Position numbers and translations under genes: made by a program | The notes under the pieces: generated by a model | Seen by the model: only the letters and a program-made list of their open reading frames with translations | Database searches by the model: none | What the model was told of the DNA's origin: nothing | Shown here: one piece after another, positions 45,834 through 51,288 of the stretch | How the letters are laid out: each line of letters begins with the position of its first letter | How positions within the stretch are numbered: the stretch's first letter is position 1 | From: Exiguobacterium sp. | GTDB lineage: Bacteria; Bacillota; Bacilli; Exiguobacteriales; Exiguobacteriaceae | Direction of reading: 5' to 3' | NCBI RefSeq assembly: GCF_020832205.1 | Contig: NZ_JAFIFD010000038.1 | Coordinates: 62,001-126,000, forward strand | DNA: 64,000 bases

Positions 45834-46265
45834 TCATTGTACTTGCGTATACAACTTCTGCATGTACTCGTTCACTTCATCAGCCGCTTGGAACATCATG
45901 AACGAATGTTGCAAGATGATCTCCGGCGAGAAGCCAAGGTCAAGGTCGAGCGTCGAGGCGAGCGTAACGTCACGGTCGCTGTCGAGTACGCAACGGAAGT
46001 ATTTGAACTCTTGGTTGAACTCGTTCAAGGCGTTGAGGATCGGCAAGTCTTCGACGTAGTCCGGCACGTGCGTCACGGTCGCGGCATAGAGCTCGGCGTC
46101 CGTCGTCTTTTTGTTGAAGGCGATAATCATAACGGGCTGAGCCCCAGATTTAGTCGTTTCACGTGTCAAAAACGTAACGTGTGTTTCGGTCTCGCTCTCT
46201 TTGAACGTCATGTTGCGTTCAGCGACGAGCGCTTTAAATGATTCCACTTTTTCTTCGAAGTTCAC
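45834..46265 (-). CDS. YbjN-type (CesT/sensory transduction-like) domain protein
   Basis: A 143-residue soluble protein. The layout of strands and helices with VMIIAFNKKTTDAELYAATV, LNALNEFNQEFKYFRCVLDSDRDVTLASTLDL and a final helix QHSFMMFQAADEVNEYMQKL is that of the YbjN domain, which adopts a type III chaperone-like fold. Members are thought to assist protein folding or signalling; the role is unknown. The ORF track extends too far upstream; the GTG at 46265 follows AAGGGGGA by 8 bases. It lies downstream of cstR on the same strand, 66 bases away. Confidence 0.68.
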   Translation of the reverse strand: MNFEEKVESFKALVAERNMTFKESETETHVTFLTRETTKSGAQPVMIIAFNKKTTDAELYAATVTHVPDYVEDLPILNALNEFNQEFKYFRCVLDSDRDVTLASTLDLDLGFSPEIILQHSFMMFQAADEVNEYMQKLYTQVQ

Positions 46266-46331
46266 AAAGAAGTCCCCCTTAAAAGTCGTTACTCTAACTT
46301 TCGCCCATTTGGGAAGGGAAAGCAAGGGGAA

Positions 46332-46598
46332 CTAGCGTTTCATCAACATTTTGATGGCTTCTTCGACCGTTTCAGACGTATCTTCGCCATCTTGTTGTGC
46401 GGTGATAATGCACTGCTCTAAATTTTTCGCGACGATGATCGTCGAGGCGCGGTCGAGCGCCGATCGGGCTGCGCTCAACTGGGTGACGACATCACGGCAC
46501 TCTTTTCCTTCTTCCATCATCCGGATGATGGCCCGAATCTGACCTTCGACACGCTTCATCCGGTTCAACACTTTCGTGTCATATTGATACTGTTCCAT
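46332..46598 (-). CDS. cstR: CsoR-family repressor, CstR (persulfide-sensing) type
   Basis: An 88-residue all-helical CsoR/RcnR-family repressor. Cysteines C34 (GKECRDVV) and C63 (NLEQCIITA) occupy the two thiol positions, but the copper-ligating histidine of CsoR is replaced by asparagine (N59). This two-cysteine pattern without histidine is that of CstR, which senses persulfides by forming interprotomer di- and trisulfides. It is divergent from a rhodanese and a CoA-disulfide reductase/TusA/DsrE fusion, the usual CstR targets, and both promoters carry G-tract palindromes. GAGGTG is 8 bases before the ATG. Confidence 0.85.
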   Translation of the reverse strand: MEQYQYDTKVLNRMKRVEGQIRAIIRMMEEGKECRDVVTQLSAARSALDRASTIIVAKNLEQCIITAQQDGEDTSETVEEAIKMLMKR

Positions 46599-46743: not shown

Positions 46744-46772
46744 TTGCAATGAGATACCATAGGGGGTATATT
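46744..46772 (+). promoter_or_regulatory. Promoter of the rhodanese-cdr operon
   Basis: TTGCAA, 17 bases, TATATT, with the operator in the spacer. Confidence 0.65.
46754..46769. promoter_or_regulatory. Putative CstR operator 2 (rhodanese side)
   Basis: ATACCATAGGGGGTAT: an ATACC / GGGTAT palindrome with a G-tract, between the -35 and -10 of the operon promoter. Confidence 0.7.
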
Positions 46773-46885: not shown

Positions 46886-47191
46886 ATGAAAGCATCGGCT
46901 TTAAAACGACAAATGGATTTTGAAGTACCTGTAAATATCGTCGACGTTCGTGAACGGGACGAATTTCAAGAAGCGCACATCGCCGGGGCGAAAAACTATC
47001 CGCTCTCTGAATTAGCAGAGTGGATCGACACGCTCGACCCGGAGCAAGAATACATCGTCTTATGCCGTTCAGGTGCCCGCAGCACGCAAGCGACTTGGCA
47101 AATGGAAGCAAAAGGCTATAAAGTGGTCAATATAGAAGATGGCTTGATGAGTTGGCCAGGTGAAGTCGTCAAAGGAGGAAATGAGCAATGA
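46886..47191 (+). CDS. Single-domain rhodanese (sulfurtransferase)
   Basis: A 101-residue rhodanese with the active-site loop CRSGARS (cysteine at about residue 64) and the typical VNIVDVRERDEFQEAHIAGAKNYPL entry. It carries persulfide sulfur between donors and acceptors in the cytosol. The track starts at 46790, but that region contains no good site; the ATG at 46886 follows AAAGGATGGG and begins MKASALKRQ, and an ATG at 46853 is an alternative. The TGA overlaps the ATG of the downstream fusion gene, so the two are co-translated. Confidence 0.85.
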   Translation: MKASALKRQMDFEVPVNIVDVRERDEFQEAHIAGAKNYPLSELAEWIDTLDPEQEYIVLCRSGARSTQATWQMEAKGYKVVNIEDGLMSWPGEVVKGGNEQ

Positions 47192-49659
47192 GTAAAAAAA
47201 TCGTAATCGTCGGTGGGGTGGCAGGTGGTGCCTCGGCAGCAGCCCGTCTTCGCCGTTTAAATGAAGAGAACCAAATTGTCATGTTCGACCGTGGAGAATA
47301 TATTTCGTTCGCGAACTGCGGTCTTCCATATTACATCGGAGACGTGATCCAAGACCGTCAAAAGTTACTCGTCCAAACGGTCGAAGGGATGAACAAACGA
47401 TTCCAGCTCGACATCCGTAACTTGACAGAAGTGACAAAAATCAACCGTGCTGAGAAAACGGTATCGGTGAAAAACGTCAAAACGGGCGAGACGTATGATG
47501 AGTCATACGACGTACTCGTCTTGTCTCCAGGTGCGAAACCGATTCGTCCGAACATTCCTGGAATCGAAGAAGCAGAAGACATCTTCACGCTCCGTAACAT
47601 TCCGGATACGGATAAAATCCGCAGCTACGTTGATGACAAGGCGCCAAAACACGCGACTGTCATCGGTGGAGGCTTCATCGGAATTGAAATGGCTGAAAAC
47701 TTGCGTGAGCGCGGCGTCGATGTGACACTCGTCGAAATGGCCGATCAAGTCATGACACCGCTCGACCGTGAAATGGTATCACCTGTCCATGAACATATGC
47801 GTCTTCATGGCGTCGACCTTCAATTGTCTGATGGTGTCGACTCGTTCTCGGAAAAAGGGAAACGTGTCCACTTGAAGAGCGGTCGCGTCATTGAAACGGA
47901 CATGGTCGTCTTGTCGATCGGCGTCGTGCCGGAATCTTCAATCGCGACAGAAGCCGGTCTTGAGACAGGCATTCGTGGCGCGATTCGTGTCAACGAGAAG
48001 ATGCTCACGTCAGACCCTAACATCTATGCGATCGGTGATGCTGTCGAAGTACTCGACTACGTCTTCAAAGAGCCGACGGTCGTCCCGCTTGCATGGCCGG
48101 CTAACCGCCAAGGACGTCTCGTGGCCGACATCATTAACGGCCGTGACGTGAAATACAACGGTACGATGGGAACTGGGATTGCCAAAGTGTTTGATATGAC
48201 CGTCGCTTCGACAGGTTGGAACGAGAAACGTTTGAAAGCGGCTGGTAAAGAGTTTGAAGCCGTTCACGTGCATCCAGGTTCGCACGCCGGCTACTACCCA
48301 GGATCGACACCGGTATCGCTCAAGCTCTTGTTCCATCCGACGACAGGTGAGATCTATGGCGCCCAAGGCGTCGGCATGAACGGCGTCGACAAACGCATCG
48401 ACGTGATTGCGACAGCGATGAAAGGCGGATTGACGGTCCTCGACCTCCCAGACCTTGAACTCAGCTATGCGCCACCGTTCAGTTCGGCGAAAGACCCGGT
48501 CAACATGATCGGTTATGTCGCCTCGAACGTCGTCCTCGGGGACAACGAAGTCGTCCATTGGGACGAGATTGAAGGCTTGGTCGCGAACGGCGCGACATTG
48601 CTTGACGTCCGTGACGAGTCGGAACACGAACTTGGGAAAATCCCAGGATCGATTAACGTCCCGCTCAATTCGCTTCGTGACAACTTAGAAAACTACAGCA
48701 AAGACGAAACGATTTACGTGACATGCCAAGTCGGTCTTCGCGGATACCTTGCGTCCCGCATCTTGCGTCAAAACGGCTTCAAAGTGAAAAACTTGAGCGG
48801 TGGCTACAAAACGTGGTCACAAGTGAAGCGTGATTTCGATGCGATCGAGGAAGGTACGAAAACAGCGGCGGATGAAACAGCCGCGACAGCTACAAAGGAG
48901 GCACCACAAGCAATGATCAATGAACCAGTCGGGGAACCGATTTTCCTAGATACGTGCGGTCTGCAATGCCCGGGACCAATCTTAGAAGTAAACAAAAAAG
49001 TCGCTGAACTAGGCGAAGGCGAAACACTTCGTGTCCTCGCGAGCGACCCAGGATTCTTCGCTGACATCGAAGCGTGGGCGAAAAAGACGGGCAACAAACT
49101 CGTTTCGAAACAGTTCGTCAACGGTCGTGTTGAAGCGATCCTTCAAAAAGGCAACGGCCCTGCGGCCGTCCAAGCCGGTGCACCAGCAACTGACGGCGCT
49201 TCAATGGTCGTCTTCAGCGGTGACCTTGACCGTGCCCTTGCTTCATTCATCATCGCCCAAGGTGCTGCGGCGATGGGCAAAGACGTGACGATGTTCTTCA
49301 CGTTCTGGGGACTTAACGTCATCCGTAAGCCGGACGCGCCGGAAGTGAAGAAACAAGGTCTCGAGAAGATGTTCGGCATGATGATGCCTTCGCATGCAGG
49401 GGAACTCCCGCTCTCGAACATGAACTTTGGTGGAGTTGGTCAGAAGATGATGAAGAAAGTGATGAGCGACAAAAACGTGCCATCACTTGATGAAATGATT
49501 AAATCGGCACAAGAGGCAGGCGTCAAAATGGTCGCTTGTACGATGTCGATGGACGTCATGGGAATCAAAGAAGAAGAGTTGATCGACGGCATCGATCTCG
49601 GTGGTGTGGCCGCATACCTCGGGGCAGCTGAAGGTGGAAACTTGAACCTCTTCATCTAA
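47188..49659 (+). CDS. cdr: Four-domain CoA-disulfide reductase / rhodanese / TusA / DsrE-family fusion
   Basis: An 823-residue sulfur-handling flavoprotein. Residues 1 to about 445 form a CoA-disulfide (persulfide) reductase: FAD motif VGGVAGGASAAAR, redox cysteine C44 (SFANCGLPYYIG) and GGGFIGIEMAEN for NAD(P)H. A rhodanese domain follows (about 460-555, C513 in VTCQVGLRGY). After an Ala/Thr-rich linker (about 556-580) comes a TusA-like domain (about 585-655, CGLQCPGP with C590 and C594). A DsrE2-like domain (about 665-823, C784 in VACTMS) ends the chain. The likely task is reduction and relay of per- and polysulfides. A strong internal ribosome binding site lies in the linker. Repression by CstR is expected. 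Confidence 0.9.
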   Translation: MSKKIVIVGGVAGGASAAARLRRLNEENQIVMFDRGEYISFANCGLPYYIGDVIQDRQKLLVQTVEGMNKRFQLDIRNLTEVTKINRAEKTVSVKNVKTGETYDESYDVLVLSPGAKPIRPNIPGIEEAEDIFTLRNIPDTDKIRSYVDDKAPKHATVIGGGFIGIEMAENLRERGVDVTLVEMADQVMTPLDREMVSPVHEHMRLHGVDLQLSDGVDSFSEKGKRVHLKSGRVIETDMVVLSIGVVPESSIATEAGLETGIRGAIRVNEKMLTSDPNIYAIGDAVEVLDYVFKEPTVVPLAWPANRQGRLVADIINGRDVKYNGTMGTGIAKVFDMTVASTGWNEKRLKAAGKEFEAVHVHPGSHAGYYPGSTPVSLKLLFHPTTGEIYGAQGVGMNGVDKRIDVIATAMKGGLTVLDLPDLELSYAPPFSSAKDPVNMIGYVASNVVLGDNEVVHWDEIEGLVANGATLLDVRDESEHELGKIPGSINVPLNSLRDNLENYSKDETIYVTCQVGLRGYLASRILRQNGFKVKNLSGGYKTWSQVKRDFDAIEEGTKTAADETAATATKEAPQAMINEPVGEPIFLDTCGLQCPGPILEVNKKVAELGEGETLRVLASDPGFFADIEAWAKKTGNKLVSKQFVNGRVEAILQKGNGPAAVQAGAPATDGASMVVFSGDLDRALASFIIAQGAAAMGKDVTMFFTFWGLNVIRKPDAPEVKKQGLEKMFGMMMPSHAGELPLSNMNFGGVGQKMMKKVMSDKNVPSLDEMIKSAQEAGVKMVACTMSMDVMGIKEEELIDGIDLGGVAAYLGAAEGGNLNLFI
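48894..48915 (+). promoter_or_regulatory. Internal ribosome binding site and in-frame ATG in the fusion gene
   Basis: AAAGGAGG at 48894-48901 is followed 11 bases later by an in-frame ATG (48913, codon 576), exactly at the linker before the TusA domain. Initiation here would give a separate TusA-DsrE protein of 248 residues. Confidence 0.55.
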
Positions 49660-49842: not shown

Positions 49843-51288
49843 ATGGAAAATATGATTGAAAAGTTTGTTGGGCAAGCAAACGACTTGTTATGGTCGTCAG
49901 TGCTCATCGTCGTTCTCGTGGCACTTGGACTGTATTTCACGGTTCGCATGGGCTTTGTTCAGTTCCGGATGCTTCCGGAGATGTTCCGTCTCCTATTCAA
50001 AGAAGGCATGAAGCGTGAAAAAGGACAAGTCTCGTCGTTCCAGGCATTCGCCATCGGTACGGCAGCTCGTGTCGGTACCGGGAACATCGCAGGTGTCGCG
50101 ACAGCGATCGCCCTCGGTGGACCGGGAGCCGTCTTCTGGATGTGGCTCATCGCCCTCATCGGCTCGGCCTCGGCGTTCGTCGAGAGCACGCTCGCCCAAG
50201 TGTATAAAATCCGCGACGGACGCACGTGGCGCGGGGGTCCGGCTTACTATATGGAACGCGCCCTCGGACAGCGTTGGCTCGGGATTTTGTTCGCCATCCT
50301 GATCACGTTCTCGTTCGGATTCGCTTTCAACTCGGTGCAGTCAAACACGATCTCGCTCTCGATGAGCAACCAGTTCGGTGTCAGCACGACGACGGTCGGG
50401 ATCATTTTGGCGGTCATCACGGCCATCGTCATCTTCGGCGGCGTTCAATCGATCGCCATCTTGTCGAGTATTATCGTCCCAGTCATGGCCGGCGGTTACA
50501 TTTTGCTCGCGATGTGGATCATGATTTCGAACGCGTCACTGCTGCCGAGCGTCTTTAGCCTCATCTTCTCGGAAGGTGTACTCGGCATCCAGCAACTGTT
50601 TGGCGGTGCGGTCGGGGCAATGGTGCTTCAAGGTATCCGTCGCGGTCTCTTCTCGAACGAGGCTGGTATGGGTTCGGCGCCGAACGCGGCAGCGACGGCA
50701 GAAGTATCACACCCGGTTAAACAAGGCTTGATCCAATCGTTCAGCGTCTTTGTCGATACGCTCATCATCTGTACGTCAACAGCGATGATCATCTTGTTGT
50801 CGGGCGTGGCTGGTTCAGATTCGTTTGCTGGTGTTGAATTGACTCAAGCGGCACTTACGGCAGAAGTCGGTCCGATCGCGACATCGTTCTTGACGATTGC
50901 GATTTTCTTGTTCGCGTTCAGCTCGATTCTAGGTAACTATTACTACGGCGAGACGAACATTCAGTTCATCTCGGAGAAAAAGATTTACGTCACGCTTTAC
51001 CGCATCGGTGTCGTCGGAATGGTCCTCTTCGGAGCAGTTCGTTCAGCAGGCCTCGTCTGGTCAATCGCCGACGTGTTCATGGGACTCATGGCGCTCGTCA
51101 ACTTGTATGCGATTTTCCGTCTTGCGAAAGTGGCGCGTCTCGTGCTCGATGACTACTTGGCGCAACGTCGTCAAGGAGACGACCCGGTGTTCTACGCCGA
51201 TTCGATTGAAGACCTTCCAGGTCGTGAGTATTTGGAAGCTTGGGAAAGCGAAGCGGAAGAAACGAAAACCGGCACCGTCCGTTCATAA
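49843..51288 (+). CDS. Alanine/glycine:cation symporter (AgcS family)
   Basis: A 481-residue sodium- or proton-coupled amino acid carrier with about 10-11 membrane helices. Family motifs include AIGTAARVGTGNIAGVATAIALGGPGAVFWMW near residue 66 and RRGLFSNEAGMGSAPNAAATAEVSHP near 266. It probably brings in alanine or glycine; the alanine dehydrogenase gene lies about 25 kb away in the window, so a functional link is possible but unproven. TGGAGG is 8 bases before the ATG; a good promoter lies upstream and a terminator follows. Confidence 0.92.
   Translation: MENMIEKFVGQANDLLWSSVLIVVLVALGLYFTVRMGFVQFRMLPEMFRLLFKEGMKREKGQVSSFQAFAIGTAARVGTGNIAGVATAIALGGPGAVFWMWLIALIGSASAFVESTLAQVYKIRDGRTWRGGPAYYMERALGQRWLGILFAILITFSFGFAFNSVQSNTISLSMSNQFGVSTTTVGIILAVITAIVIFGGVQSIAILSSIIVPVMAGGYILLAMWIMISNASLLPSVFSLIFSEGVLGIQQLFGGAVGAMVLQGIRRGLFSNEAGMGSAPNAAATAEVSHPVKQGLIQSFSVFVDTLIICTSTAMIILLSGVAGSDSFAGVELTQAALTAEVGPIATSFLTIAIFLFAFSSILGNYYYGETNIQFISEKKIYVTLYRIGVVGMVLFGAVRSAGLVWSIADVFMGLMALVNLYAIFRLAKVARLVLDDYLAQRRQGDDPVFYADSIEDLPGREYLEAWESEAEETKTGTVRS

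Follow-up and report, generated by a model that had tools for sequence, protein, structure and literature searches.

CoADR-RHD of Bacillus anthracis (3ICR/3ICS) and CoAPR of Enterococcus faecalis (8A56) combine a CoA-disulfide reductase with a rhodanese in one chain and stop after the rhodanese; enzymes of the CoADR-RHD type are dimers (PMC9405070). CstA, encoded in the cst operon of Staphylococcus aureus, joins rhodanese, TusA and DsrE domains in that order (PMC9918477) and is without a CoA-disulfide reductase part, and the TusA of aligned CstA-type proteins lacks the first cysteine of the CGLQC motif. All of these domains occur together in BF638R_0572 of Bacteroides fragilis, whose published description mentions no internal start (PMC6158253). 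The DsrE2/DsrE3 proteins of Metallosphaera and Sulfolobus are reported to be trimeric, gel filtration of DsrE2B being compatible with either a dimer or a trimer (PMC4175335).

In several other systems, namely SctQ/YscQ-C (PMC4295842), Cas11b (PMC11899642) and RpnS (PMC10327210), an in-frame internal start lets one mRNA yield, besides the full chain, a separate protein made of the C-terminal domain or domains. The short products of these systems have been detected experimentally, and that of YscQ, YscQ-C, is a required assembly partner of the longer form (PMC4295842).

Here, we focus on a four-domain sulfur-transfer gene of an Exiguobacterium sp. and on a candidate second start within it. The gene lies in a stretch of 64,000 nucleotides (the window), to which all positions refer. 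Its product shares its first two domains with CoADR-RHD and CoAPR, but continues with TusA and DsrE2 and holds the internal start; its last three domains are those of CstA, but a reductase part precedes the rhodanese, and the protein was accordingly regarded as related to the CstA-type sulfurtransferases and not as one of them. BF638R_0572 has the identical domain order at nearly identical coordinates (TusA 589-657, DsrE 671-825), and the fusion itself is not new, being widespread in Bacillota and published in B. fragilis. No report of an internal start in a four-domain sulfur-relay fusion was found in the literature searched. The host of the internal start is a metabolic sulfur relay, unlike SctQ/YscQ, Cas11b and RpnS, and whereas their short products were observed by experiment, the TusA-DsrE2 short form is predicted from comparative evidence.

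The four-domain gene and its operon

The gene, its domains and the elements upstream of it are as follows.

46332-46598, minus strand: CsoR/CstR-type repressor gene (PF02583, Pfam), divergent
46744-46749 and 46767-46772, plus strand: predicted promoter (promoter scan), -35 TTGCAA and -10 TATATT
46755-46768, plus strand: putative CsoR/CstR-type operator TACCATAGGGGGTA, overlapping the predicted -10 of the rhodanese-fusion operon
46886-47191, plus strand: single-domain rhodanese gene (Pfam), overlapping the fusion gene by 4 nt
47171-47178, plus strand: Shine-Dalgarno sequence (SD) of the full-length gene, AAAGGAGG, within the 3' end of the upstream rhodanese gene
47188-49659, plus strand: four-domain sulfur-transfer gene, CoA-disulfide reductase-rhodanese-TusA-DsrE2, 823 aa, ATG start
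47197-48489, plus strand: CoA-disulfide reductase part, FAD/NAD and dimerisation domains (Pfam, NCBIfam; PDB relatives 3icr, 8a56), redox Cys C44 at 47317-47319
48568-48822, plus strand: rhodanese domain (Pfam), active-site Cys C513 at 48724-48726
48943-49149, plus strand: TusA domain (Pfam, PF01206), CPGP Cys C594 at 48967-48969
49201-49653, plus strand: DsrE2 (DrsE_2) domain (Pfam; PDB relatives 3pnx, 2qs7), Cys C784 at 49537-49539

A preliminary description of this DNA had recognised four sulfur-transfer modules in one chain, and the Pfam matches on the 823-residue product bear this out: Pyr_redox_2 (residues 4-293), Pyr_redox_dim (333-434), Rhodanese (461-545), TusA (586-654) and DrsE_2 (672-822) all exceed their curated cut-offs. 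The score for NF010037 lies above its cut-off and that for TIGR03385 slightly below (571 bits against 578.8), and residues 2-546 match the B. anthracis CoADR-RHD structure 3icr with E = 1.8e-242. By sequence this part has the hallmarks of a CoADR-RHD, with a disulfide reductase fold and a single redox cysteine in SFxNCGLPYY, followed by a rhodanese with its active-site cysteine; the predicted activity of the reductase part is the NAD(P)H-dependent reduction of CoA disulfide or CoA persulfide.

In E. faecalis CoAPR the catalytic cysteines C42 and C508 are the counterparts of C44 and C513 (PMC9405070). In an alignment of 38 divergent fusions (48-66% identity) C44, C513, C594 and C784 are invariant, and C590 is variable, with serine or other residues in several relatives. 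The persulfide relay proposed earlier is therefore kept in part: the path C44-C513-C594-C784 is plausible by homology, two of its steps having been measured in relatives, but C590 is not conserved and the CPGP cysteine C594 alone should be given for TusA. One member of the genus (L080) has a TAA stop at codon 662, between TusA and DsrE2, which either cuts off DsrE2 or is an assembly error. Every genome of the window's genus also holds a second CoADR-rhodanese paralogue (one copy being L002, G000:C17:4646-6295), 40% identical and without TusA-DsrE2.

The start of the full-length gene is common to all 19 species of the window's genus compared; its SD (-12.1 kcal/mol) is followed by a 9-nt spacer, and the stop codon of the upstream rhodanese gene overlaps it in the sequence ATGA (47188-47191). 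That rhodanese gene most likely starts at ATG 46886 (MKASALK...) rather than at TTG 46790, the start column being conserved with an SD. A CsoR/CstR-type repressor gene adjoins the fusion, as in a cst-like operon. The putative operator element, TACC(ATA/TAA)GGGGGTA, was present in seven of seven genus species compared, and the same pattern was not found in four species of the sister genus. Together, repressor gene and putative operator would fit induction by sulfane sulfur by analogy with cst operons. Disproportionation of elemental sulfur has been reported for Exiguobacterium, and rhodaneses are suspected of taking part (PMC12510457). Next to the repressor gene lies a gene for a 163-aa protein without a Pfam hit (45834-46325, minus strand), which probably starts at a GTG (VNFEEKVES) conserved with an SD; directly upstream of the sister-genus fusion there appears to be a similar gene.

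A probable start site in the linker before TusA

The elements of the linker between the rhodanese and TusA domains are as follows.

48865-48930, plus strand: linker, residues 560-581, predicted disordered (AlphaFold pLDDT below 50)
48894-48901, plus strand: internal SD AAAGGAGG, an SD being present in 19/19 species of the genus
48913-48915, plus strand: internal start codon ATG (Met576), in frame and kept in 19/19 species of the genus
48913-49659, plus strand: predicted internal product, TusA-DsrE2, 248 residues (comparative evidence)

A strong SD with an in-frame ATG at codon 576 had been placed in the linker by the preliminary description, and both the sequence and the predicted disorder of residues 560-581 agree with this. 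The spacer between SD and ATG is 11 nt, against 9 nt at the gene's own start. The first TusA strand of the AlphaFold model begins at residue 585, nine residues after Met576, so that, with the preceding linker disordered, a start at 576 would be predicted to give a complete TusA-DsrE2. Folding of the mRNA around the site is in no way unusual (z = 0.03).

Start codon and strong SD are both kept in all 19 species of the window's genus, with SD strengths from -8.8 (weakest) to -12.5 and a mean of -11.8 kcal/mol, while the linker around Met576 is otherwise variable in sequence and length. Non-conservation in close homologues, which the preliminary description had named as counting against a short product, was thus not seen. 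Among 35 conserved start-codon columns in the gene the internal site ranks second in SD strength, the true start being first, and of the 34 columns where Glu is invariant across the genus, only that of Glu571, which forms the SD core, is GAG throughout. Four-fold sites of the gene differ by about 0.53-0.56 between subclades of the genus. The fusion contains the only TusA (PF01206) in the genome, and the same holds for each of the 19 genomes of the genus; a second DsrE2 was not found in these genomes at the threshold used.

The site is constructed differently in the sister genus, also represented by 19 species. None of these has Met at the position of ATG576; instead, ten codons upstream, GGAGG is followed after 8 nt by GTG in 18 of the 19. 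At codon level, the motif (AAG/CGG/CAG) GAG GA(A/G) followed by two codons is found in all 19 species, and then GTG in 18. Directly ahead of the core Glu stands Lys, Arg or Gln, in a codon that always ends in G, which is unique among 91 K/R/Q columns; of 37 Glu columns, that of the core Glu alone is GAG throughout; and the start Val column, with GTG in 18/19, shares the top place among 45 Val columns in a gene where GTG makes up 15% of Val codons. The mean SD of the site is the strongest of 33 conserved start columns in the gene. The 16S 3' end of the sister genus reads GGATCACCTCCTTTCT; the 16S 3'-end pattern was not found in the regions examined from the window's genus, which large stretches of N fill.

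Over both genera, a start codon at the linker site is kept in 37 of 38 species, as ATG in the window's genus and GTG in its sister. The exception, a sister-genus species (L060) that has no other TusA gene, keeps the SD and has GTA in place of GTG, so that here the second start has been lost in nature. Other TusA genes are present in 16 of the 19 sister-genus species, so the internal start cannot in general be put down to the absence of a free TusA.

Within a single genome the signal is weaker. A synonymous shuffle of the linker gave p = 0.056 for the window's genome, which is suggestive only, and p = 0.01-0.25 (median 0.14) for single genomes over the genus; once codon usage and the K/E-rich composition of the linker are allowed for, the SD is therefore not exceptional in one genome. 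Single-genome tests (the synonymous shuffle and a gene-internal window test) did not settle the question in the genus, and conservation tests took their place as the main evidence; out-of-frame starts were dropped as a control, as the shifted frames hold too few start codons. The background was taken, by a scan set up independently of the linker site, from all ortholog groups in the 20-kb neighbourhood, comprising 20 groups with 152 conserved start-codon columns in the genus and 15 groups with 109 in the sister genus, under an SD cut-off of -8 kcal/mol in every species. The columns that pass are gene starts and exactly one internal in-frame site per genus, which is the linker site. SD and start codon are more strongly conserved than the protein sequence alone would demand, and the conservation of the site, together with its turnover in the sister genus, is far more than chance would give. 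Elsewhere in the neighbourhood, codon 138 of a Na+:alanine symporter gene (49843-51288, plus strand) is a conserved internal Met with a moderate SD in both genera (means -8.5 and -7.2, weakest -6.2 and -6.0), below gene-start strength.

The fusion and its linker in other lineages

Many families of Bacilli have four-domain frames of 810-900 residues, and the fusion is also found in Clostridia, Fusobacteriota, Bacteroidota, Spirochaetota and others. The Exiguobacteriaceae fusions sit among fused homologues. In a tree of DsrE2, proteins of the CstA type arise from within clades of fusions in at least two places.

Fusions read as Anoxybacillaceae have a linker Met at -15 in 11 of 11 cases, with a mean SD of -9.2, and this is the strongest conserved internal start of the gene. 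In a staphylococcal-family genus, whose family also includes the genomes of staphylococcal type that carry CstA, a start codon is found at -15/-16 in all seven readable genes despite residue changes; in one of them the linker Met has become Val by a change from ATG to GTG. Paenibacillus-like fusions and many others have no internal site. Among 77 divergent fusions Met is weakly enriched at the TusA boundary (0.035 against about 0.02 per codon), and 39% of linker ATGs have an SD of -8 or better, compared with 3% of other internal ATGs; much of this excess reflects amino-acid composition, and the remainder is borderline (p = 0.05). A very strong linker SD with a start codon occurs in six single divergent fusions (L107, L166, L199, L204, L213 and L242), the linker of L107 reading GAGAGGAGATTTTTATG (-13.5 kcal/mol).

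From these comparisons, there is a strong case for an internal start in Exiguobacteriaceae and a suggestive one in a few other lineages, but no general one. More tentatively, and we consider this rather doubtful, internal initiation between rhodanese and TusA might be a recurrent device, re-made across Bacillota at shifting positions, that fixes how much full relay is made relative to free TusA-DsrE2, with mixed DsrE2 trimers supplied by a dimeric reductase.

One reading frame, probably two proteins

We consider it likely, with good confidence, that one mRNA gives rise to two proteins through selected internal initiation, the 823-residue chain and a 248-residue TusA-DsrE2. Ribosomes would initiate afresh at the linker SD and start codon, and the short protein would have the same C-terminus as the full chain. 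The internal start would have been selected across Exiguobacteriaceae, having moved ten codons between the two genera and yet been retained. The earlier proposal of two possible products, the full fusion and a separate TusA-DsrE2, is strongly supported by the comparative evidence, and we infer both that the short protein is made and what its role may be; the 11-nt spacer, which is long, counts against a dual product. The full chain would reduce or unload CoA-persulfide at the cysteines of its reductase and rhodanese, and the likely use of free TusA-DsrE2 would be to carry sulfane sulfur onward, off the rhodanese. In addition or instead, the short form may fill a trimeric DsrE2 assembly that a dimeric reductase alone cannot complete, a suggestion made by analogy because CoADR-RHD enzymes are dimeric and DsrE2/DsrE3 proteins trimeric, with YscQ-C as a precedent in assembly. 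The setting of stoichiometry by the internal start, put forward in the preliminary description, is one plausible role.

Four other explanations of the site were weighed. The SD-like motif might instead act as a translational pause at the domain boundary, allowing the reductase-rhodanese half to fold first, with no new protein made. The motif does lie exactly at the boundary, and L060 retains it after loss of the start codon; a pause, however, requires no start codon at the right distance, whereas ATG or GTG is kept in every species but one, and SD and start codon shifted together between the genera, which makes this explanation unlikely.

It is also quite improbable that the tail half is translated from a separate short mRNA, made from an internal promoter and served by the same SD. 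Such a transcript would explain the conserved SD and start codon too, but a consensus scan of the plus strand from 47305 to 48900 found no promoter-like site, such scans being weak evidence.

Simple coincidence, in which the codons of a K/E-rich linker (AAG GAG, GAG GAG) happen to resemble an SD and the Met is incidental, would accord with the p values of the single-genome shuffles and with the stronger SDs of linker ATGs elsewhere, which stem partly from amino-acid make-up. It has very little chance of being correct, however, given that the SD-core Glu is the sole all-GAG column independently in both genera, that a Met or GTG is conserved within a variable linker, and that the 20-kb scan gives no second internal site of gene-start strength.

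Scarcely credible, finally, is the neutral relic that the preliminary description had also entertained, a leftover ribosome-binding site of a once separate TusA-DsrE2 gene fused in frame: although the internal start is located where free-standing TusA proteins begin, the fusion is widespread and the Exiguobacteriaceae are among its fused homologues, many fusions (Paenibacillus-like ones included) are without the site, and the site survives, at different positions in two genera, a synonymous divergence so near saturation that a neutral relic should have vanished.

If selected internal initiation does operate here, a widespread persulfide-handling enzyme would be, at least in Exiguobacteriaceae, a system of two proteins specified by a single frame, and the sole TusA-type carrier in the window's genus would exist both tethered and free. 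Knock-out of the gene would then remove two proteins together, and work on the full-length protein only would misreport the system. The locus also plainly documents how an internal ribosome-binding site has turned over, which is visible since it is codon choice, and not the amino acid, that is conserved; the test used, for a conserved start column with an SD in every species, could reveal further hidden isoforms.
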